DNA from: Caldithrix abyssi DSM 13497
Lineage (GTDB): Bacteria; Calditrichota; Calditrichia; Calditrichales; Calditrichaceae
Assembly: GCF_001886815.1 (NCBI RefSeq)
Contig: NZ_CP018099.1
Coordinates: forward strand, 620,001 to 684,000
Direction: 5' to 3'
DNA length: 64,000 nt
The notes beneath the pieces were generated by a model, which did not search any database, was not told the origin of the DNA, and saw only the letters and a program-made list of their open reading frames with translations. A program made the translations under genes and the position numbers. Below, piece by piece: positions 3,139 to 16,312 of this stretch (within the stretch, counting starts at the first letter, position 1; each line of letters starts with the position of its first letter).

Positions 3139-4404
3139 AAAACAAAAATAATCCTTAGATTGAGTTTATGAAAGATAAAGAATTATTTAAACAGATTTTG
3201 GGACTTTCGCATCCCTGGGAAGTGTCTAAAGTTGACTTAGATATTGCGAATGAGGAAGTAGAAATAGAGATTATCTATAAGTCAAAAAAAGGTTTTTGTC
3301 CCGAATGCGAAGTGGAATATGATATTTATGATCATCGCGAAAAACGTCGTTGGCGGCATTTGGATACATGCCAAATGAAGACCTATATTGTCTGCAAAGT
3401 ACCCCGCATTAAATGCAAGGAACATGGAGTAAAAACGATCAAAGTACCTTGGGCAGAAAAGTCGAGTCGAACGACTTTATTATTTGAACGTTTTGCTATT
3501 GAGTTATTACTGGCCTCCAAAAACCAGAGCAAAACGGCACAATTTTTACGGATCAGCTTTGATATGCTTCATCATATAATGAGCAAAGCAGTGGAACGCG
3601 GGCTATCACGCCGAACGGAAGAGGACATTAAATATATCGGGATAGATGAGAAGAGTATGAAAAGAGGTCATACTTATGTAAGCGTATTATCCGATAGTGA
3701 AAGAAGACGTGTAATAGATGTAAGTGAAGGTCGCACAACAAGCTCTGCCAGTTCGTTAATAAACAAGGGATTAACAGAGAAACAAAAGGAGGGCCTCAAA
3801 GCGGTCAGTATGGATATGTGGAAAGCTTTTATTAAAGCTGTTCAAAAGGAGCTTCCCAATGCTTCCATAGTGCATGACAAATTTCATATAATGAAGTATT
3901 TAAATGATGGAGTGGATAAAACCAGACGAGAGGAAGCCCGTAAATTACAAAAATCTAATGATAAAACCTTAGTGAAAAGTAAATATTTATTTTTAAAGAA
4001 TCCGGAAAATATGACGGACAAGCAATTATCGCGTTTCAGAAAAATTCAAGAACTTAACCTTATCACTTCCCAGGCTTGGGCGGCCAAAGAGAACTTCAAA
4101 GAATTCTTTAGGAGTGAAACAATAAATGATGCGAAATTCTTTTTTGCGGAATGGTATCAGGATATTAAGGGACGTTCTTTAAATAAAATGATTAAAGTAG
4201 CAAAAATGCTCATTGCTCATTCAGATGGCTTATTAAACTATATAAGATATCAGATAGATAATTCAGTAGCCAAATGGTTGAACGGCAAGATACAGGAGAT
4301 AAAAACAGTTGGTAGAGGCTTTAGAAAATTTGAAAATTTTAGGATAGCAATACTTTTCTTTCTTGGTAAATTAGACCTTTTTCCACAGGAATCCCAGTAG
4401 AGCC
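3117..4404 (+). mobile_element. ISL3-family insertion sequence, complete
   Basis: About 1288 bp bounded by terminal inverted repeats that start GGCTCTACTGGGATT; roughly 25 bp match with three mismatches. The 8 bp on each side (3109-3116 and 4405-4412) are identical, TTTATATT, a perfect target duplication of the length expected for ISL3 elements. One transposase gene fills the element, and its stop codon lies inside the right inverted repeat. The intact ends, open frame and perfect duplication suggest a recent insertion. Confidence 0.92.
3168..4400 (+). CDS. ISL3-family transposase
   Basis: A 410-residue transposase. The N-terminus holds a zinc-ribbon-like cluster (CPECEVEYD and, further on, KCKEHG), followed by a helical DNA-binding part and the DDE catalytic domain. 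The first Asp lies in YIGIDEKSMKRG and the second in VSMDMWKAF, with VHDKFHIMKYLN downstream, all standard ISL3 motifs. Length fits the family. The gene has no strong ribosome site, as is usual for IS transposases. Its last residues and TAG stop are encoded by the right terminal inverted repeat. It is more AT-rich than the flanking genes. Confidence 0.93.
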   Translation: MKDKELFKQILGLSHPWEVSKVDLDIANEEVEIEIIYKSKKGFCPECEVEYDIYDHREKRRWRHLDTCQMKTYIVCKVPRIKCKEHGVKTIKVPWAEKSSRTTLLFERFAIELLLASKNQSKTAQFLRISFDMLHHIMSKAVERGLSRRTEEDIKYIGIDEKSMKRGHTYVSVLSDSERRRVIDVSEGRTTSSASSLINKGLTEKQKEGLKAVSMDMWKAFIKAVQKELPNASIVHDKFHIMKYLNDGVDKTRREEARKLQKSNDKTLVKSKYLFLKNPENMTDKQLSRFRKIQELNLITSQAWAAKENFKEFFRSETINDAKFFFAEWYQDIKGRSLNKMIKVAKMLIAHSDGLLNYIRYQIDNSVAKWLNGKIQEIKTVGRGFRKFENFRIAILFFLGKLDLFPQESQ

Positions 4405-5812: not shown

Positions 5813-6244
5813 ATGCCTAAACGATTAACAACCATCCGCCTGGGCGAAATAACCGATAAGCAGATCAAAGATTTTACGGATCTGGGTTATACGGTAACGC
5901 AATTAATAGCCATGGCCATCGACCGGTTTCACCATAAAGAATTGCGCAATGAGCAGGACAGCAGTCTGTTCGCTCCCATTTACAGCCAGATTTTTCATCT
6001 CTGTGAGGCGCATGAAAACGACGCGATTGAGGTTATGCGGCAGAATAAAATTTTTCATTTAAACCCCATTACTTACGACGAATTAAAGCCTGATGAGGCG
6101 TTTTATGTGGAAATCGGTCACTTAATCCGCCCGCCGTTTACGCGCGTTGATTTTGAAACGTCAAAAACAGAAGATCAAAAGACAAGCCCGCGCAAATTTT
6201 GTCGGGGAATGCTGGTAGCCGCGCCAAGTTTTAGCCTTGCTTAA
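5813..6244 (+). CDS. Ribbon-helix-helix-like protein of unknown function
   Basis: A 143-residue protein with a very strong ribosome site (AAAGGAGG, 5-6 bp before ATG). The N-terminus, KRLTTIRLGEITDKQIKDF followed by a helix with TVTQLIAMAIDRF, has the strand-helix-helix look of a MetJ/Arc DNA-binding domain (about residues 4-43). The remaining 100 residues are soluble and match no family I recognise. It may be a small regulator, but the fold is judged from pattern only. The nearest genes are more than 350 bp away on both sides. Confidence 0.6.
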   Translation: MPKRLTTIRLGEITDKQIKDFTDLGYTVTQLIAMAIDRFHHKELRNEQDSSLFAPIYSQIFHLCEAHENDAIEVMRQNKIFHLNPITYDELKPDEAFYVEIGHLIRPPFTRVDFETSKTEDQKTSPRKFCRGMLVAAPSFSLA

Positions 6245-6604: not shown

Positions 6605-6874
6605 ATGGAGAAGATAATTTTAAAAGTGTTCATTAACAGTTCCTCTGCGGAACAACGAGCCATGGTTCAAAATTTAGGCGAAATTTTAAAGCAAGAATAT
6701 GAGGATAATTTTCATTTAACGGTCTATGATATCCAGCAGGACAAAAAGGAAGCACGCCACTATGGTATCTTAGCGATTCCCACAATTGTCAGGATTAAGC
6801 CACAACCGGAACGTCGTTTTATCGGCAATATTAGCTCCAGGGAAGAAGTTATTTCTTTAATTCAATCGAACTAA
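6605..6874 (+). CDS. KaiB-like thioredoxin-fold protein
   Basis: An 89-residue protein with the KaiB domain over its whole length: KIILKVFINSSSA at the start, TVYDIQQDKKEARHYGI (37-54), LAIPTIVRIKPQPERRFIGN (56-75). The A-I-P-T segment, the P-P pair and the RR-IGN end are family hallmarks. KaiB binds KaiC in the cyanobacterial clock, but many non-cyanobacterial KaiB-like proteins act with histidine kinases or as stress proteins. Here no kaiC is present; the next genes downstream are sensor kinases on the same strand, 256 bp away, which suggests a role in that signalling island. Confidence 0.85.
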   Translation: MEKIILKVFINSSSAEQRAMVQNLGEILKQEYEDNFHLTVYDIQQDKKEARHYGILAIPTIVRIKPQPERRFIGNISSREEVISLIQSN

Positions 6875-7130
6875 GTTAACTGCGGTAATAGCGTACGGTT
6901 TAAATGCTTTAAGTGCCAGCAAACTCGATAAAGGGTAAAATGAGTATCCTTGTAAAAAACAGGAAAATCTGTATTGGTAGCTTTTTTAGGTTTATTTTTA
7001 AAATAAAGCTGCTAACCTGCCTGCGGATAGAAGCAGAGGTTGTTTTAAAAGAGATCGAGAATAAAGATTGGTGTTGCAGATACATTGTGTTAAAATATTT
7101 TCTGTTGTATGTTTTTTAGGGTGATTTAAT

Positions 7131-10100
7131 ATGGAAGAAATAAAAGAAATACAGATATTAATGATTGAAGACGACCCAGATGACGCCCTTATTATTAAAG
7201 ACCTTCTTTGTGAATCTAAAGACCCCGCTTTTGTGGTAGATCATGTGTACGATTTAAAAAACGGTCTGGAATTTTTACAAACCAATAATCCCGATATTAT
7301 TTTATTAGATTTAAACCTTCCTGACAGTAGCGGCCTGGATACCATAAGAGCATTAAGATCTTATACGCAGAACCTTCCTGTCATTGTAATTAGCGGTCAC
7401 AGCGACCAAATGCTGGCCATGGAAGCCGTAAAAATTGGTGCGCATGATTATCTGGTTAAAGGGATTATTTCGGCGCCGATTTTACGACGCGTTTTACTAT
7501 ATGGCTTAAATCGCCATAACCTGAGAAGAAGTCTTACCGAAAATATTGAGCAGTATGACATAATCATCGAAAACAATATTTTTGGGATTCTGATCATAGA
7601 CAATAGCGGTGTCATCCAGTTTAGCAATAAAAAGGCCGGAGAGTTGCTTGGAAAAGATCCCGAAGATTTAATTAAACAGGATTTCGGTATTCCGGTTGTT
7701 CAGAATAGAGCTTTTCATCTCCAGGCTGGCGATCGAATGATCGAACTACGTTCGCGGCCCATTGTCTGGCAAAAACAACAGGCTTACTTTGTTTCCATGT
7801 ATGATGTGACCGAACGCCTTAAAAGCGAACAAAGATATCAGGCCTTAAATCGCGTTTACCGCATGCTTTTAAAGGCCAATGAAGCTTTGTTTCAGATGCA
7901 TGATGAAAATTCCTTACTGAAAGAGATCTGTAAAATTGTGGTCGAAGAAGGGGGATATCATTTTGCCTGGGTGGGCTTTGCCGATAATGATCGTCATAAA
8001 ACGGTGCGTCCCGTGGCCTATTTTGGTCGTGAAGAACATTATATAAAAGGCATTAAAATATCCTGGGGCAAAAACAAATTTGGCCAGGGCCCAACCGGCC
8101 GCGCCATTCGCAGCGGCCAGGCGGTTACCGTGCAAAACTGGTCAAAGGACCCTATCGTAGCTCCCTGGCGAAAAAACGGTAAATGCTTCAACTTTAAGGC
8201 TTCCATTGCCCTGCCCTTAAAGAATGGCGACGAAACCTTTGGCGCGCTGAATATTTACAGCAAAGAACAAATCTCTTTTGAACCTCTGGAAACCGAGCTG
8301 TTATTAAAGCTGGCCGGAAATTTAAGCTATGGCATCCAGAATTTGCGTTTAAAAAAAGCAAAAGAGAAAAACGAACAAGCCCTGGCCGAAAGTTACACAC
8401 GATTCCGGAACCTGTTTAACAGCGTTCCGGTCGCGCTGTACATCTTTTCTATGGATGAAAAATTATTTGAAGCGAACTCTTTTTTTCTAAAAATGACTGG
8501 ATTTGAAAAGGTGGAAGATTTAAAGGCCTTTGCCTTTAAACACGGCGGCATGAGCGTCGAGGCCGATAAAGTTTTAAAAGTGTTAGAAACAGAAGATGCC
8601 ATCCATGAACTTGAGACCCAGTGGCGAACCAATAACGGTAATTTGATCTGGGTGAAAGAAAGTATTCGTGTGGTTCGGGATCATCAGGGCAAAATTTTAT
8701 ATTACGAAGGAATGGCCGAAGACATAACCGCCCGTAAAGCGGCAGAGCAGGCCCTGAAAGCCAGCGAACAAAAATATCGGCGGATTGTCGATCTGGCGCA
8801 GGAAGGAATATGGATGTTAGATGCGCGCGCCAGAACAACCTTTGTCAATCAAAAGATGGCCGACATGTTAGGCTATGAAGCGCAGGAGATGATAGGCAGA
8901 AATTATTTTGATTTTATAGTTAAAGACAATAAAAAAGAGGCCGTCGCTCAATGGCACAAACAACTGCAGGGCAAAAACATTCAACATGAATTGTGTTTTC
9001 TGAAAAAAGACGGAACGAAAATGTGGGGGCTGGTTTCTTCAAGGCCGATTCTGGAGGAGGATTTTCAGGGCGCGCTGAAAATGGTGGTGGATATCACCGA
9101 AAAAAAATTAATCAATCAACAATTAGAAGAAACCAATCGTCAGTTGATGAGCCTGTTAGAATCCAGCTCGGCGGTTATTTATTCGGCCAGGTGGCACAAT
9201 GGCATGGTGGCGCCGCTGCAGATTACGGCAAACCTTAAAAACATTTTTGGCTATGAACCGCAAGAGTTGATCAATAATCCGGATTTGTGGATTAACAACA
9301 TCCATCCCGAAGATAAAGAACAGGTGATCCAGGCCATTACTAGGATTAACCAGCCCGGAAAGTACAGCTTTGAATACCGTGTTAAAGACCGCGCCGGCAA
9401 TTATCTGTGGGTTTATGACGAAATGCGCATTCCGGCGGACTGGCGGGAAGGAACGTTCACCATCCATGGCTTATGGATCGACATCACAGAAAAGAAAAAA
9501 CTGGAAGGGCAGTTTTTACGAGCCCAGCGCATGGAAAGCCTGGGGGCGCTGGCCGGCGGTATTGCCCACGATTTAAACAATATTTTAACGCCCATTTTGC
9601 TGGCCACAGAAGTGCTGCGCATGCGCGACAAAAAACCGGCCAATGAAAAGGTAATGCACATGATTGAAAGCAGCGCGCAGCGCGGAAAAGAACTTATTCA
9701 ACAAATACTGTCGTTTGCCCGGGGCGTAGAAGGAGAGCACAAGCCGGTGCAGGTGCGGCATATTATTGCCGAAGTCGGGCGGATTATAAAAGAAACCTTT
9801 CCCAAATCGATTAATTTTAAAATGTCGGTTGCCAAAGATTTATGGCCGGTGCTGGCCGATGCCACCCAAATCAATCAGGTGCTCATGAACCTGTGCGTCA
9901 ATGCGCGCGACGCCATGCCCGAAGGCGGAAAACTGGAGATCAGGGCAGAAAACGTCGTTTTCGATGAACATTATTCTTTAATGCACCAAACCGCCCAGCC
10001 GGGAGATTATATTAAAATCAGCGTAATCGATAGCGGGCAGGGTATCCCGGAAAAGTTAATCAATAAAATATTTGATCCCTTTTTTAGCACCAAAGAGGTC

Positions 10101-10667
10101 GGCAAAGGCACGGGGCTCGGTCTTTCAACCGTGCACACCATTATCCAGCAGCACAACGGTTTTATCAACGTTTATTCGGAACCGGGAAACGGTACGACCT
10201 TTAATGTTTATTTGCCCGCCAATAAATCCGCCGAAGTGGAAGAATCCCGGGAAATTGCAGAAGATCTGAAGGGCGAAGGCCAGACCATCCTGGTTATTGA
10301 CGACGAGGCGGCCATACGCGAAATTATTTCGAATACGTTAAAAGATAACGGCTACCGGGTATTAACCGCCAGCGACGGCGCACAGGGCGTGGCCATTTTT
10401 GCCCAACAAAAAAATAAAACTGACCTGGTGCTGACCGATATTTCCATGCCTTATATGGACGGCCATTCGGCCATTCGTTCCATATTAAAAATTAATCCCG
10501 ATGTCGATATTATCGCCATGAGCGGACTGGAACACGATGTTAAGGTTGACATAAACAGGCCAATTAAAATGTTAAACAAACCGTTTACATCACAAAAATT
10601 GTTGAAAACCATGAAAGAGGTTCTTGCCGTTTCCACTAAAACAAAGGAAAAACAAACGGCAAATTGA
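7131..10667 (+). CDS. Hybrid sensor histidine kinase, REC-PAS-GAF-PAS3-HK-REC
   Basis: A 1178-residue soluble kinase with no membrane segment. Domains in order: receiver (about 7-115; phospho-Asp60 in LLDLNLPD, Lys110), PAS (about 140-215), GAF (about 250-395), three PAS domains (about 415-535, 545-660, 670-790; Y-EGMAEDIT and Y-WIDITEKKK ends), HisKA with His813 in GGIAHDLNN, HATPase (about 905-1035; NARDAMPEGG N-box, DSGQGIPE and GTGLGLST G-boxes), and a C-terminal receiver with Asp1103 in VLTDISMPYMDG. A receiver at both ends makes it a phosphorelay hub; signals are probably cytoplasmic. It shares its layout with the next gene. Confidence 0.93.
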   Translation: MEEIKEIQILMIEDDPDDALIIKDLLCESKDPAFVVDHVYDLKNGLEFLQTNNPDIILLDLNLPDSSGLDTIRALRSYTQNLPVIVISGHSDQMLAMEAVKIGAHDYLVKGIISAPILRRVLLYGLNRHNLRRSLTENIEQYDIIIENNIFGILIIDNSGVIQFSNKKAGELLGKDPEDLIKQDFGIPVVQNRAFHLQAGDRMIELRSRPIVWQKQQAYFVSMYDVTERLKSEQRYQALNRVYRMLLKANEALFQMHDENSLLKEICKIVVEEGGYHFAWVGFADNDRHKTVRPVAYFGREEHYIKGIKISWGKNKFGQGPTGRAIRSGQAVTVQNWSKDPIVAPWRKNGKCFNFKASIALPLKNGDETFGALNIYSKEQISFEPLETELLLKLAGNLSYGIQNLRLKKAKEKNEQALAESYTRFRNLFNSVPVALYIFSMDEKLFEANSFFLKMTGFEKVEDLKAFAFKHGGMSVEADKVLKVLETEDAIHELETQWRTNNGNLIWVKESIRVVRDHQGKILYYEGMAEDITARKAAEQALKASEQKYRRIVDLAQEGIWMLDARARTTFVNQKMADMLGYEAQEMIGRNYFDFIVKDNKKEAVAQWHKQLQGKNIQHELCFLKKDGTKMWGLVSSRPILEEDFQGALKMVVDITEKKLINQQLEETNRQLMSLLESSSAVIYSARWHNGMVAPLQITANLKNIFGYEPQELINNPDLWINNIHPEDKEQVIQAITRINQPGKYSFEYRVKDRAGNYLWVYDEMRIPADWREGTFTIHGLWIDITEKKKLEGQFLRAQRMESLGALAGGIAHDLNNILTPILLATEVLRMRDKKPANEKVMHMIESSAQRGKELIQQILSFARGVEGEHKPVQVRHIIAEVGRIIKETFPKSINFKMSVAKDLWPVLADATQINQVLMNLCVNARDAMPEGGKLEIRAENVVFDEHYSLMHQTAQPGDYIKISVIDSGQGIPEKLINKIFDPFFSTKEVGKGTGLGLSTVHTIIQQHNGFINVYSEPGNGTTFNVYLPANKSAEVEESREIAEDLKGEGQTILVIDDEAAIREIISNTLKDNGYRVLTASDGAQGVAIFAQQKNKTDLVLTDISMPYMDGHSAIRSILKINPDVDIIAMSGLEHDVKVDINRPIKMLNKPFTSQKLLKTMKEVLAVSTKTKEKQTAN

Positions 10668-10995
10668 ATTTGAAAAAAATTATCTGATGATCACACAGGA
10701 AAATCGGTTGAAGCGCCCGGCCTGCTTAATCGCTCTAAATTACGGTTTTTTCTTACTGCTTTTTCGACTTCCCTCTAATTTTAATTGACTTGACCGATGG
10801 GCGAAACCGTAAAACGTAAATGATCAATGCAAAAAACAAAGGGAAAAATATAAGGCTGCCGAAAATTATTTGACGCGGATAAATGCCAAAACATGATAAA
10901 AGGTTGCTTGTGCAAACGCCACATGTTAAAAATACTTTGTCGAAGGCGCCATGAAGCAGCTTTGCTCATCAAAATCATTAACTATGGGAGAAATT

Positions 10996-13900
10996 ATGGC
11001 CCCCAAAACAATAAGGGTATTAATGATCGAAGACGATCGGGAAGATATCCTGTTTATGAAGGATATTTTACAAAATACCCGCAAGAATTTTAAATTATCC
11101 ACCTGCACCAGTTTAAAAGACGCTAAAAAGGCGCTTTCGAAGCATAAGTTCGACGTTATTCTGGTGGATCTGAATTTGCCCGATAGTCAGGGCTTTGACA
11201 CGATCCAGGCCTTACAGGAAATCGCTTATGATATTCCCAAAATTGCCATCAGCGTTCTGGATGATCCGGAATTAACCGCAAAAATTTTAAAGGTTGGGGC
11301 GCAGGATTATTTGCCAAAGCAGTTGCTTCCCGCCAATTTTATTGAACGCATTATTGTTCACGCTCTTGAGCGTCACAATCTCTACAAAACAATTGAAATG
11401 AGCGAAAAGTTGACCAACAAAATTCTGGAGGAGATTTCCGACGGAGTTTTGCTGATCAACGAAAAAAACGAAATCCTCTTTCAGAATAAAGCCGCGGAAA
11501 ACCTCTTAAATAAAGGTTTGTTAATGTCGAATGGCTGGAGTTTCGAAATGGCCGGGGATAAAACGGAAATTAAAGAACTCGTTTTGAATGACCCTGCCGG
11601 CGCGCCTTTTTATGTGCAGGTTCGTAAAACTTCATTGCAATGGCGCGGCAGCCCCGCTTTCTTATATACCATTGCTGATTTGACCGACAGAAAATTATTC
11701 GAAGAGGAGTTAAAGCGCAAAGAATCGATTCTCAAGGTAATCAGCCAAAGCGCCAGGCAGTTGTTGCGCTCCAGAAGCTGGGACAAGTACATCGATTTAA
11801 TTTTACGACAACTGGGCAATGTGGCGCGTGTTGACCGGGTTTGCTTATTCCAGAATTATCGGGACGAAAAAGGGCGCTTATACGCCAGACAGAAAAACAA
11901 GTGGATTGCTCCGGAGAAAGAAGCTCAATTGCAGAATCAGAATTTACAGAATATTCCATTAAAAGAGGCGGGGCTGGAGCGATGGATTGAAGAGTTGAGC
12001 AAAGGCCGTCTTATTTACGGAGATATTGAAAATTTCCCTGTTTCTGAAAAAAAGATGCTGCAAGAGCTGGAGATTGAGTCCATGCTGGTTGCGCCCATTT
12101 TTGTGGCCGACCAGTGGTGGGGATTTTTATGTTTTGATTCCTGTCATGAAACGCGAAACTGGTCTTATAGCGAGCGGGAAGCGTTATTGTTGGCCGCCGA
12201 TATTCTGGGCGCCGCCGTTCAAAGGGAACGCAACGAAAAGAAGATGCTGGAAAATGCCAGTAAATTTCAGCGTTTTATCGATGTGGCAACTTTTGGCATT
12301 TTGCTCATCAAAAAGGAACGCATCATCTTTGCCAATTCTACCATGGTAAACATAATGAAGATGACTTCTGAAGCAGAAATGGTGGGCAAAACCATAAAAG
12401 AAGTTGTCCATCCGGACGACTTGCCCGAAGTAGAAAAAAATATTGAAAAATTGTATAAAACGGCCAACCAATCCCACGAATTCGAATTTAGAATGATTCG
12501 CCCGAATAATACAGTAGCCATCGTCGAAGGCCTGGCCTCTTTTATCGAAGAAGAGAAAGACACCTTCCTTATTTTTATCAAAGATATCAGCGACCGCAAA
12601 AAGACTGAACAGGAGTTAAAAAAGACCTATAAAATCTTAAATCGATTGTTAGAGGCCAATACAACGGTTCTTTTTAGCGGGCCATTAACCGAGCGTTTTT
12701 CTCCAAATCATATCAGTCAGAACATTAAGGGATTAATGGGATTTGAGGCGCAGGAGATCATCGAAAATCCGCAAATTTACTTTGACGGTTTGCATCCGGA
12801 AGACAGGGCCAAGGTTTTAAAGGCCATGGAACAATTTAAAAAGACAGGTCGCATTTCACTGGAATATCGCTTCAAACACAAAAACGGTCATTTTATCTGG
12901 ATTTATGATGAACGAGCGGTGGTAAAAGAAGAAAATACCGAACCAGAAATGAACGGTTTTTGGCTGGACATCAGTTTAAAGAAAAAATACGAACAACAAT
13001 ATACGCGCGCCCAGCGTCTGGAAAGCCTGGGAACGCTGGCCGGCGGCATCGCCCATGATTTAAACAATGTGTTGACGCCCATTTTGATGGGCACGGAGCT
13101 GCTCAAACACATGGTTAAAGATGAAAGAGCCATTAAATCGTTAGAGTTAATGGAAACCAGCGCGCAACGCGGCGCCTCTTTAATCAAACAGGTACTGGCC
13201 TTTGCCCGCGGCACCGAAGGAGAACGCACGGTTGTTCAGGTTCGTTACCTCATATCGGAAGCCGTGAAAATGGTGGAGCAAACCTTTCCCAAACACATCC
13301 AATTGAGCATCGACGTGGCCGACGATTTATGGCCAATTATGGCCGACGCTTCACAAATACACCAGGTGTTGATGAATATGCTGGTGAATGCCCGCGACGC
13401 CATGCCCAATGGAGGCTCTTTACAAATTACCGCCGAAAACTTAATGCTCGATGAACAATACGCCCTCTCTCTGGGAAATGCGCCCAAAGGGCCTTATGTG
13501 ATGATTACCATCAGCGATACAGGCACGGGCATTGCCGCGGATATGATTGATAAAATTTTTGATCCGTTTTTTACCACTAAAGAGATCGGCAAAGGTACGG
13601 GCATGGGGCTGGCCACGGCCCATCGCATTATTGATGAGCACGGCGGATTCATTAACGTTTACAGCGAAGCAAATAAAGGCACCTCCTTTAAAATCTATTT
13701 GCCCGCCCATAAAAGAGCCAGAGAAGAAACGCCCGTTAAAGAAGATGATGTTCCCATGGGCGAGGGACAGTGTATTTTGCTGATCGAAGACGAAGTTTCT
13801 GTGCGGGAGATTACGAAAAAAACGCTGGAAACCAACGGCTACGCCGTGTTTACCGCAGCGGACGGTCCGGAAGGCATCGCTGTTTTTGCCGATAATTTAG

Positions 13901-14124
13901 ATACCATCAATCTGATTATCACAGATATGTCCATGCCCTTAATGGATGGGCCGTCTGTTGTGCGCGCCTTAAAAAGAATCAGCGAAACCATTAAAATAAT
14001 TGCCATTAGCGGTCGCGACGATGAAGTTAGCAGCCTGAAACTGATCAACGTGCCTTTTATCCAGAAACCGTTCACAGCATCTACTTTATTAAAAGAGGTG
14101 CATCAGGCTTTAACAGAAAAATGA
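10996..14124 (+). CDS. Hybrid sensor histidine kinase, REC-PAS-GAF-PAS2-HK-REC
   Basis: A kinase of 1042 residues from ATG 10996, which has GGGAGAA just upstream; an ATG at 10951 would add 15 residues. Order: receiver (VDLNLPDSQG phospho-site), PAS, GAF (about 255-405), two PAS domains, HisKA with the phospho-His in GGIAHDLNNVLTPI (about residue 687), HATPase (NARDAMPNGG, DTGTGIA, GTGMGLAT), and a C-terminal receiver with LIITDMSMPLMDG. The H-box neighbourhood and both receivers are near copies of those in the preceding kinase, so the two genes look like a tandem duplication that lost or gained one PAS unit. No membrane segments. Confidence 0.92.
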   Translation: MAPKTIRVLMIEDDREDILFMKDILQNTRKNFKLSTCTSLKDAKKALSKHKFDVILVDLNLPDSQGFDTIQALQEIAYDIPKIAISVLDDPELTAKILKVGAQDYLPKQLLPANFIERIIVHALERHNLYKTIEMSEKLTNKILEEISDGVLLINEKNEILFQNKAAENLLNKGLLMSNGWSFEMAGDKTEIKELVLNDPAGAPFYVQVRKTSLQWRGSPAFLYTIADLTDRKLFEEELKRKESILKVISQSARQLLRSRSWDKYIDLILRQLGNVARVDRVCLFQNYRDEKGRLYARQKNKWIAPEKEAQLQNQNLQNIPLKEAGLERWIEELSKGRLIYGDIENFPVSEKKMLQELEIESMLVAPIFVADQWWGFLCFDSCHETRNWSYSEREALLLAADILGAAVQRERNEKKMLENASKFQRFIDVATFGILLIKKERIIFANSTMVNIMKMTSEAEMVGKTIKEVVHPDDLPEVEKNIEKLYKTANQSHEFEFRMIRPNNTVAIVEGLASFIEEEKDTFLIFIKDISDRKKTEQELKKTYKILNRLLEANTTVLFSGPLTERFSPNHISQNIKGLMGFEAQEIIENPQIYFDGLHPEDRAKVLKAMEQFKKTGRISLEYRFKHKNGHFIWIYDERAVVKEENTEPEMNGFWLDISLKKKYEQQYTRAQRLESLGTLAGGIAHDLNNVLTPILMGTELLKHMVKDERAIKSLELMETSAQRGASLIKQVLAFARGTEGERTVVQVRYLISEAVKMVEQTFPKHIQLSIDVADDLWPIMADASQIHQVLMNMLVNARDAMPNGGSLQITAENLMLDEQYALSLGNAPKGPYVMITISDTGTGIAADMIDKIFDPFFTTKEIGKGTGMGLATAHRIIDEHGGFINVYSEANKGTSFKIYLPAHKRAREETPVKEDDVPMGEGQCILLIEDEVSVREITKKTLETNGYAVFTAADGPEGIAVFADNLDTINLIITDMSMPLMDGPSVVRALKRISETIKIIAISGRDDEVSSLKLINVPFIQKPFTASTLLKEVHQALTEK

Positions 14125-14289
14125 TATGCAAACAGGGGCAAAATAATAATGAAAGGATTTATGGGCATCAGGCCAGAGCGGCCACGAAAGGAACAAACAA
14201 AAAATGCAACCGTTGGTTAAAAAAAGTTGAACTTTATGAAAGAAGTCTTTTAAATATAGCTAAAGATGCGTGTTTTAGCCGGAGTAGTT

Positions 14290-15855
14290 ATGATGATAAA
14301 CGAAAACACATCTTTATCGGAGATCGATGTGATTAAAAATGAAGAGCAATTATTAACGTTTATACCCAAAAGCGTGCTCGGCTCGTTGTTTAAGAATTTT
14401 TCCATAACCTTTTATATGCTTAAACCCGATAAGCAATATGGCTATCGCTTCCTCTATATGGGAAAGAGCGTCGAACGCCTGTTGGGTTTTAAACCCATGG
14501 ATTTTGTCTCCGACGCCGGTTTGTGGCTAAGGCTCATTCATGATCATGATCGCCCCTTTCTGTTAAAAAACGGCCGGCGCCATCTCGAACACAAATATCA
14601 AAAATTGACCTATCGAATGAAGAATTGCGAGAGTAAATACCGCTGGCTACGGGATGAATTGCATCCCGTTTTCAAAGACGGAAAACTGGATTATTTTGTG
14701 GGGTTATGGGTCGATGTTAGCGATGAAAAATCATTTGAAGAGCTCTCCAAAGAAAACATGACGCGCTTTCAAACGTTAATTGCCGCCAGCGGGCAGATCA
14801 TCTGGAGTACGGATGCCAGCGGGCGGGTTGTGGAAGATGTTCCCGGCTGGCGCGCCTTTACCGGGCAAAGCCTGGAGCAGGTAAAGGGCGAAGGATGGCT
14901 TTCGAGCATCCATCCAGAGGACCTTTCGAACGTACAGAAGGCATGGAACCATGCGCTGGCTACAAAAACAGATTTTAAAGGAGAGTTCAGAATTCGCCGT
15001 CACGACGGGGTTTACAGATGGTTCATCGTGCGTGCGGTGCCGGTACGCAATGAGGAAGTAGACGTACACGGCTGGATTGGCGCCTGCGCCGACATCACGG
15101 AACAGGTAGAACGCGAAGAACTGCTGGAAAACTATGCCGCGCGTCTGGAGCAAAGCAATCGCGATTTGCAGGAATTTGCCTACATCGCCTCGCACGATCT
15201 GCAGGAGCCGGCGCGTAAAATTCTGGCCTTTGGCGACCGGCTTTTTGCAAAATATAAAAACCGGCTCGATGAACAGGGCGTAGATTATCTGAAACGCATG
15301 ATGAACGCCAGCAAACGAATGCAAAACCTGATCAACAGTTTACTTACCCTTTCGCGCGTGGAAACCAGAGGTAAACCGTTTGAGCGGATTGATCTAAGCA
15401 GGGTTGTGGACGAGGTGATCTCAGATCTTGAATTAAACATAAAGCAGGTAGAAGGACAGATTAATACAGAAAAACTGCCGGCCATAGAAGCCGATGAAAC
15501 ACAAATTTACCAGCTCTTTGAAAATTTAATCAGAAATGCGTTAAAATTTCACCGGAAAGATGTTAACCCCCGGATCAAAGTGTATTGGTCTAAGAAAAGA
15601 TCCAATAACCATCGCGTGACGATCGTTGTGGAAGACAACGGAATCGGGATTGAAACTCAGTACGCCGACCGCATCTTCAAACCTTTTCAGAGGCTGCACG
15701 CCCGCGATGAATATGAAGGCTCGGGCATGGGCCTGGCCATTTGCCGACGAATCGTCGAACGTCACCACGGTAAAATCTATTTTGAAAGCGAATTAAATAA
15801 AGGAACAAAATTTTTTGTAGAATTGCCAGTAAAACAAAAAAAGGAGAAAATTTGA
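14290..15855 (+). CDS. PAS-PAS sensor histidine kinase, phytochrome-kinase type
   Basis: About 521 residues from ATG 14290, which has GGAG five bases upstream; an in-frame ATG at 14266 is less well placed. Two PAS domains (about 35-150 and 160-275, each closing with a W-D-(V/I) stretch) precede a HisKA with the phospho-His in IASHDLQEPARK (about residue 302) and an HATPase (N-box NALKFH, G-boxes DNGIGIE and GSGMGLAI). The ASHDLQEP H-box is that of kinases paired with Rcp1-type regulators. The next gene, one base away, encodes exactly such a regulator, so they form a two-gene module. Confidence 0.9.
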   Translation: MMINENTSLSEIDVIKNEEQLLTFIPKSVLGSLFKNFSITFYMLKPDKQYGYRFLYMGKSVERLLGFKPMDFVSDAGLWLRLIHDHDRPFLLKNGRRHLEHKYQKLTYRMKNCESKYRWLRDELHPVFKDGKLDYFVGLWVDVSDEKSFEELSKENMTRFQTLIAASGQIIWSTDASGRVVEDVPGWRAFTGQSLEQVKGEGWLSSIHPEDLSNVQKAWNHALATKTDFKGEFRIRRHDGVYRWFIVRAVPVRNEEVDVHGWIGACADITEQVEREELLENYAARLEQSNRDLQEFAYIASHDLQEPARKILAFGDRLFAKYKNRLDEQGVDYLKRMMNASKRMQNLINSLLTLSRVETRGKPFERIDLSRVVDEVISDLELNIKQVEGQINTEKLPAIEADETQIYQLFENLIRNALKFHRKDVNPRIKVYWSKKRSNNHRVTIVVEDNGIGIETQYADRIFKPFQRLHARDEYEGSGMGLAICRRIVERHHGKIYFESELNKGTKFFVELPVKQKKEKI

Positions 15856-15856
15856 A

Positions 15857-16312
15857 ATGAACAGATGGGGCAGGCCCATTACCATTCTCATGGCAGAAGA
15901 CGATAAAGACGACCAGCTGCTGGTGCGTGATTCTTTTGACGAATGCCACCTGGTAAATGAGCTCCTGTTTGTTGAAGATGGGCAACAACTGATTGACTAC
16001 TTAAAACGTCGCCCGCCGTATAACGACGAAGAAAAAGCGCCTTTTCCGGATATTATTTTGCTGGATTTAAACATGCCCCGCAAAGACGGGCGCGAAGCGC
16101 TGGAAGAGATTAAACGCGATCCAGAATTAAAACATATTCCAGTAATCGTTTTAACCACTTCAAAAGCCGAAGAAGATATTTTACGCAGCTATAAGTTGGG
16201 CGTGGCCGGCTTTATCAGCAAACCCGTTACTTTTAACGGTCTGGTGCAGGTGGTCCGAACGCTGACCGATTACTGGTTTCAAATTGTCAAATTGCCGCCC
16301 AAATTGGTTTAA
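15857..16312 (+). CDS. Rcp1-like single-domain response regulator
   Basis: A 151-residue receiver with no output domain. Acidic pocket AEDDKDD (13-19), phospho-Asp70 in ILLDLNMPRKDG, Thr100/Thr101 and Lys122 in FISKPV. The R-K-D-G loop and the insertion with PPYNDEEKAPFPD are typical of the Rcp1 family that partners phytochrome-type and PAS kinases. One base separates its ATG from the kinase stop, so the pair is co-translated. It is the only free receiver in the island and could also take phosphate from the two hybrid kinases. Confidence 0.92.
   Translation: MNRWGRPITILMAEDDKDDQLLVRDSFDECHLVNELLFVEDGQQLIDYLKRRPPYNDEEKAPFPDIILLDLNMPRKDGREALEEIKRDPELKHIPVIVLTTSKAEEDILRSYKLGVAGFISKPVTFNGLVQVVRTLTDYWFQIVKLPPKLV

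Follow-up and report, generated by a model that had tools for sequence, protein, structure and literature searches.

A kaiB-family gene beside receiver-PAS hybrid kinases in Calditrichota, and a possible role of KaiB apart from KaiC

The window analysed here is a 64,000-nucleotide stretch (C1:620001-684000) of the Caldithrix abyssi DSM 13497 genome (G000), which is assembled as a single contig of 4.98 Mb. Five consecutive genes of the window form the island under study; their coordinates and their location on the + strand, as named in a sequence-only reading of this DNA, agree with the ORF list, and the domain composition described in that reading was likewise recovered by Pfam. The first gene encodes a KaiB-domain protein of 89 aa (6605..6874, + strand), matching PF07689. 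It is followed by two hybrid kinases of more than 1000 aa with a receiver at each end: HK1 (7131..10667, + strand, 1178 aa), with the architecture REC-PAS-GAF-PAS-PAS-PAS-HisKA-HATPase-REC, and its paralogue HK2 (10951..14124, + strand, 1057 aa), with the architecture REC-PAS-GAF-PAS-PAS-HisKA-HATPase-REC and a true start probably at 10999. The N-terminal receiver of HK1 (7155..7475, + strand) corresponds to a PF00072 match at residues 9-115, and alignment with CheY showed the acidic pocket, the acceptor Asp, the Ser and the Lys of canonical phosphorylation sites to be intact in the N-terminal receivers of both HK1 and HK2; their C-terminal receivers are PF00072 matches as well. The last two genes are HK3 (14266..15855, + strand), a PAS-PAS-HisKA-HATPase kinase with the motif ASHDLQEP in its HisKA domain, and, one base further on, RR (15857..16312, + strand), a 151-aa stand-alone Rcp1-like receiver containing only a REC domain (PF00072, E=2.8e-19).

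The intergenic gaps kaiB-HK1, HK1-HK2, HK2-HK3 and HK3-RR measure 256, 283, 141 and 1 bp, so that tight coupling is indicated only for HK3-RR. No terminator-like sites were found on the + strand in these four gaps. In the kaiB-HK1 gap, the best local matches between the window and the genome G002, of the same genus, were not above those of shuffled sequences and no conserved non-coding sequence was found, for which reason a conserved promoter or RNA in this gap was dropped. An ISL3-type transposase gene is located upstream of the island, at window positions 3168-4400.

Just upstream of kaiB and HK1 lies orf5813 (5813..6244, + strand, 143 aa; KRLTTIRLGEITDKQIKDFTDLGYTVTQLIAMAIDRF), whose N-terminus resembles a ribbon-helix-helix by eye only; searches of Pfam and PDB with this ORF gave no match. 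Homologues were found upstream of HK1 in G003 (44% identical) and, as a C-terminal tail, upstream of kaiB in G002; judging from these positions, orf5813 is part of the syntenic block. It could possibly be a DNA-binding output or a regulator of the island, and the presence of this conserved ribbon-helix-helix-like ORF at the head of the block leaves unproven the earlier claim that no DNA-binding output is encoded.

Among the ORFs listed for the island and the DNA around it, none is kaiC-like, and kaiC is not adjacent to kaiB. Elsewhere in the genome, a kaiC-kaiB-kaiB-hybrid-kinase operon was found at C1:1588655-1593532, 0.96 Mb from the island, in which kaiC1 (558 aa) and kaiB1 (104 aa) are joined by a divergent second kaiB (kaiB2) and a hybrid kinase gene. 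The phosphosite positions of KaiC1 are Ser-Ser (ISSIVDT, by eye). A second KaiC-like protein (499 aa) is encoded beside a hybrid kinase at C1:578049-581785, and the kaiC-like gene nearest to the window (C1:580348-581778) lies ~39 kb before it. Absence of KaiC from the whole genome was therefore rejected, and the description "kaiC-less" is true of the island only. The second KaiC-like gene is followed by an overlapping hybrid kinase gene (L016:4050-7785), with kaiB absent nearby; kaiB2 (L015:10605-11015) is highly divergent, overlaps the start of the hybrid kinase gene in the kaiC operon and is kept in G002 and G003.

Conservation of gene order in a relative, one of the checks set by the sequence-only reading, was borne out: kaiB-HK1-HK2-HK3-RR recurs in G002. 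One contig of this genome carries kaiB (90 aa), HK1 (59% identical) and the 5' part of HK2 (41%), and another carries the 3' part of HK2 (60%), HK3 (59%), RR (77%) and a UbiD-like gene (77%), which also lies after the island in the window's genome; because the contig break falls inside HK2, we infer the join of the two contigs. In G003, HK3 is followed by an RR 70% identical to that of the window, and a degenerate KaiB occupies the same slot. KaiB had seemed to be missing from G003 by tblastn, a result that was revised when our own profile detected this copy (23.4 bits, E=1.6e-5 among 8385 frames); a second profile gave only 20 bits, level with hits resembling ordinary thioredoxins, so that synteny bears much of the claim. 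KaiB was the fastest-changing member of the island, with 31% identity between the window and G002, compared with 59% for HK1 and 77% for RR. Together with the degenerate copy in G003, this suggests that KaiB may be loosely tied to the island in this genus, or in the course of losing that tie.

The window KaiB matched PF07689 with 58.9 bits (cut-off 27; E=4.2e-16) over profile positions 2-76 of 82, a domain match that extends over its length. Its score against the NCBIfam equivalog for circadian KaiB was 47.8 bits, far under the cut-off of 145.3, indicating a member of the KaiB family and not a standard clock KaiB. The protein is cysteine-free, which rules out a redox thioredoxin enzyme. It has diverged at A23, P50, L52 and D78, sites that are almost fixed in KaiC-linked KaiBs; the known KaiC-contact residues (K58 and its neighbours) did not serve to discriminate, K58 being missing from the KaiC-linked KaiB1 too.

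Structure prediction with AF2 from 15 sequences gave a thioredoxin-like, fold-switched topology (order E-H-E-H-E-E-H, pLDDT 92), and the same topology was obtained from two sequences (pLDDT 89.9, with the five models spanning 47 to 90). Since AF2 tends towards the fold-switched state when modelling KaiBs generally (PMC10808063), the predicted fold carries little weight. The predicted fold is shared with fold-switch-stabilised KaiBs (Legionella, 4kun; KaiB-TV4, 8ubh): the top PDB match was the Legionella KaiB, with a TM of 0.88, and fold-switched KaiBs came next. The window KaiB differs from them in that identity is ~30% and in that its proposed partners are REC-PAS kinases. The Legionella KaiB belongs to a kaiBC operon.

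In the KaiB tree, the KaiBs of the window and G002 paired with support of 97/96, the REC-PAS-linked KaiBs (window, G002, two copies of G027 and the sister family f2) were separated from the others with 83/77, and the island KaiB was placed apart from KaiB1 of the kaiC operon. An AU test did not reject the island KaiBs and KaiB1 as one clade (p=0.335), so the phylogeny is suggestive only. A kaiC-kaiB pair elsewhere in the genome, which the earlier reading had foreseen as an alternative account of the island KaiB, exists but does not obviously explain it. Among wider genome contigs, a scan with a single KaiB query returned no match, and another recovered nothing beyond the query locus.

KaiB was present in 11 of the 40 Calditrichota genomes. 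Five of them (G015-G019, family f2) are 94-98% complete, one being in 30 contigs, and gave no KaiC match at E<=1e-15 with the KaiC1 query or at E<=1e-20 with PF06745. All five carry kaiB directly before a gene of 603-615 aa, at a distance of 0 nt in G016, 2 nt in G015 and 32 nt in G019, and overlapping it by 4 nt in G017 and G018. The partner protein has the Pfam composition REC-PAS-PAS-HisKA-like (DHp)-REC, with no HATPase. KaiB in these genomes is under purifying selection, with dN/dS of 0.198/1.84 (0.11) for G016/G019 and 0.086/2.07 (0.04) for G017/G018, ratios that are rough because dS is close to saturation. The same PF06745 search gave no KaiC match in three KaiB-bearing genomes of other families (G124, G264 and G303). 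In G264, kaiB has as neighbours genes for a phosphonate-binding protein and for one with PAS-GGDEF-EAL domains; in G303 the order is receiver-kaiB-kinase. Most KaiB loci outside the REC-PAS-linked group carry kaiC. Judged by gene order, the island arrangement exceeds chance: G002 repeats the full order, and in the sister family kaiB again adjoins a REC-PAS gene.

The distribution of the REC-PAS module was examined in ten genomes using residues 1-245 of the G016 partner as query (E<=1e-10). Only HK1 and HK2 matched in the window's genome, among 102 candidates. The matches were the two island kinases in G002, three island-type kinases and one weak match in G003, a single protein beside kaiB-kaiC in G004, and the kaiB-linked protein plus one more in each f2 genome; seven were found in G027, five of them on the contig of a kaiBC cluster. 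The reverse search with the HK1 REC-PAS was less clean, because it met matching receivers in every genome. Two-domain matches (at least 200 residues, E<=2e-15) fell mostly in KaiB genomes (17 of 20, counted by hand), occurring in 10 of 11 KaiB genomes versus 3 of 29 others (hypergeometric P 3e-6; by genus, 0.001), a profile that is biased by the KaiB-linked query and by thresholds set after seeing the list.

Alignment with CheY showed that the kaiB-linked receiver has lost phosphorylation residues in three of the sister genomes. The acceptor Asp aligns with Ala in G018 and with Thr in G017, and in G015 the Asp is kept and the Thr/Ser and Lys are replaced by Met and Glu; Pfam no longer detected the N-terminal receiver of the G018 and G015 partners. 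Loss of phosphorylation in a receiver that stays beside KaiB fits a protein-binding role, by analogy with the pseudo-receiver of CikA.

A REC-PAS-DHp family could be recognised by the motif HEF[SA]QPLQ followed by a DYL...I.DL.AS-type tail, with no HATPase detected and an optional C-terminal receiver (L037:9756-11567, L040:6792-8606, L043:2564-4072, L134:1100-2584, L135:997-1983 and L139:9442-10479). These proteins look like phosphotransfer hubs without a kinase domain of their own. One of them is encoded in G027, a MAG of the same class (Calditrichia), within a dense cluster (L043, C36:15000-34000) of two kaiC and five kaiB-type genes, REC proteins and an HK3/RR-like pair whose RR is 45% identical to that of the window.

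The arrangement resembles several known systems in part. In cyanobacteria, fold-switched KaiB binds the pseudo-receiver of CikA by strand-strand pairing and raises CikA phosphatase activity (PMC6378743). As proposed here for the island, KaiB in that complex (PDB 5jyv) contacts a GAF-containing histidine kinase at a domain with the receiver fold, and the linked receiver lacks phosphorylation residues, as in the three sister genomes. The two cases differ in that the putative site here is an N-terminal receiver and in that the KaiC partner is absent from the KaiC-free relatives. Judged by their N-terminal receivers, which are canonical, HK1 and HK2 have the GAF and kinase domains of CikA but not its Asp-less pseudo-receiver; pseudo-receivers were seen only in the sister-family proteins.

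Non-cyanobacterial KaiC-KaiB-histidine kinase operons (PMC3164672) similarly cluster kaiB with hybrid kinases and receivers; unlike them, the island has no kaiC, and none was found in the sister-family genomes. SasA also has a KaiB-like thioredoxin-fold unit that regulates a histidine kinase, as proposed here, but its domain forms part of the kinase polypeptide and binds KaiC, whereas the KaiB of the island is a separate gene, its 89-aa ORF having its own stop 256 bp before HK1. HK3 and RR are arranged like Cph1-Rcp1, a kinase gene followed after 1 bp by a stand-alone receiver gene; HK3 differs from Cph1 in its two PAS domains, with GAF and PHY not detected (Pfam found only PAS, HisKA and HATPase).

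The preferred reading, to which we assign a probability of about one half, is that KaiB is a fold-switched, non-enzymatic subunit that binds the hybrid kinases at their receiver-PAS end and adjusts the phosphorelay. KaiB would take the thioredoxin-like state and dock on the N-terminal receiver-PAS end of HK1, perhaps also of HK2, much as fold-switched KaiB does on the CikA pseudo-receiver. The docked protein would shift the kinase/phosphatase balance of HK1 (perhaps HK2), the signal would then be relayed by the C-terminal receivers and by HK3-RR, and the module would work without KaiC. We infer the binding of KaiB to REC-PAS, its effect on the kinase, the direction of the signal and the co-transcription of the genes alike.

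That KaiB acts on a kinase instead of KaiC, as first proposed from the island alone, is favoured by the gene order, the KaiC-free sister genomes, the purifying selection and the loss of receiver residues; the GAF/PAS hub offered as an alternative docking site fared less well, and the site would be better narrowed to the N-terminal receiver-PAS end shared by the kaiB-linked proteins. The sister genomes that keep KaiB and a REC-PAS protein suggest that KaiB can regulate kinases without KaiC. Against the preferred reading count the low KaiB identity, the degenerate copy in G003, the kaiC-kaiB operon of the genome, the length of the kaiB-HK1 gap, the fully canonical N-terminal receivers of HK1 and HK2, the weak binding of KaiB by the CikA pseudo-receiver when KaiC is absent (PMC6378743), and the AF2 bias noted above. 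The wider proposal of a KaiC-independent KaiB system, in which KaiB is the partner of a receiver-PAS module on both hybrid kinases and ATPase-less DHp proteins, is held tentatively, on the doubtful side of even.

The island KaiB could instead work in trans on KaiC1, or on the second KaiC, competing with KaiB1, with the island kinases reading the KaiBC timer. The genome does hold the kaiC1 operon and the second kaiC-like gene, KaiC1 has the Ser-Ser phosphosite, kaiC accompanies most KaiBs outside the REC-PAS-linked group, a clade of the island KaiBs with KaiB1 was not rejected, and kinase genes beside kaiBC are usual and already known (PMC3164672). We consider this unlikely, given that the KaiB and REC-PAS pair is kept in five sister-family genomes where KaiC was undetected by the searches above, and that the island KaiB has diverged at four sites almost fixed in KaiC-linked KaiBs. 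It is less likely still that KaiB is a passenger or a decaying relic of a former kaiBC cluster, next to kinases of an ordinary two-component island: the fast divergence between the window and G002 and the degenerate G003 copy speak for decay, and the G027 cluster, with its kaiC, several kaiB, REC-PAS and HK3/RR-like genes, could resemble the ancestor, but kaiB is an intact full-length ORF in the same slot in the window and G002, and sister-family KaiB is under strong purifying selection.

The island might also comprise two separate neighbouring units, kaiB with HK1/HK2 and a general Cph1/Rcp1-like HK3-RR pair, which we regard as rather unlikely. The 1-bp HK3-RR gap fits such a division, as does the occurrence of an HK3-like kinase and this receiver (RR 59-60% identical) away from kaiB in G016 and G019, whereas HK1-HK2-HK3-RR are kept together in G002 and an HK3/RR-like pair lies inside the G027 kaiBC cluster. 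This division is compatible with the preferred reading of KaiB as a kinase subunit, and bears only on the extent of the island.

To our knowledge, work on KaiB has dealt almost solely with clocks and timers, where it partners KaiC. According to a survey, bacterial KaiB occurs only alongside full-length KaiC (PMC5520375); fold-switch-stable KaiB variants exist whose roles are not understood, and the roles of extra KaiB copies are open (PMC10808063). No prior report of a KaiC-independent KaiB or of KaiB in Calditrichota was found in the open-licence literature. What appears to be new is the retention of KaiB beside a receiver-PAS protein in genomes lacking KaiC, contrary to the survey. The KaiC-free genomes (five of one Calditrichota family, together with G124, G264 and G303) offer natural cases in which to ask what KaiB does by itself, and point to a receiver domain as its possible partner in them. 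If the KaiC-independent system proposed above exists, KaiB would be a general adaptor for receiver domains, the clock being one use, and the published claim that bacterial KaiB occurs only with full-length KaiC would be contradicted.

In two genomes of one genus, in which no KaiC match was found, kaiB is grouped with a phosphonate-type binding protein gene and a HAMP-PAS-GGDEF-EAL gene (L119:8164-13952 and L120:8026-12851).
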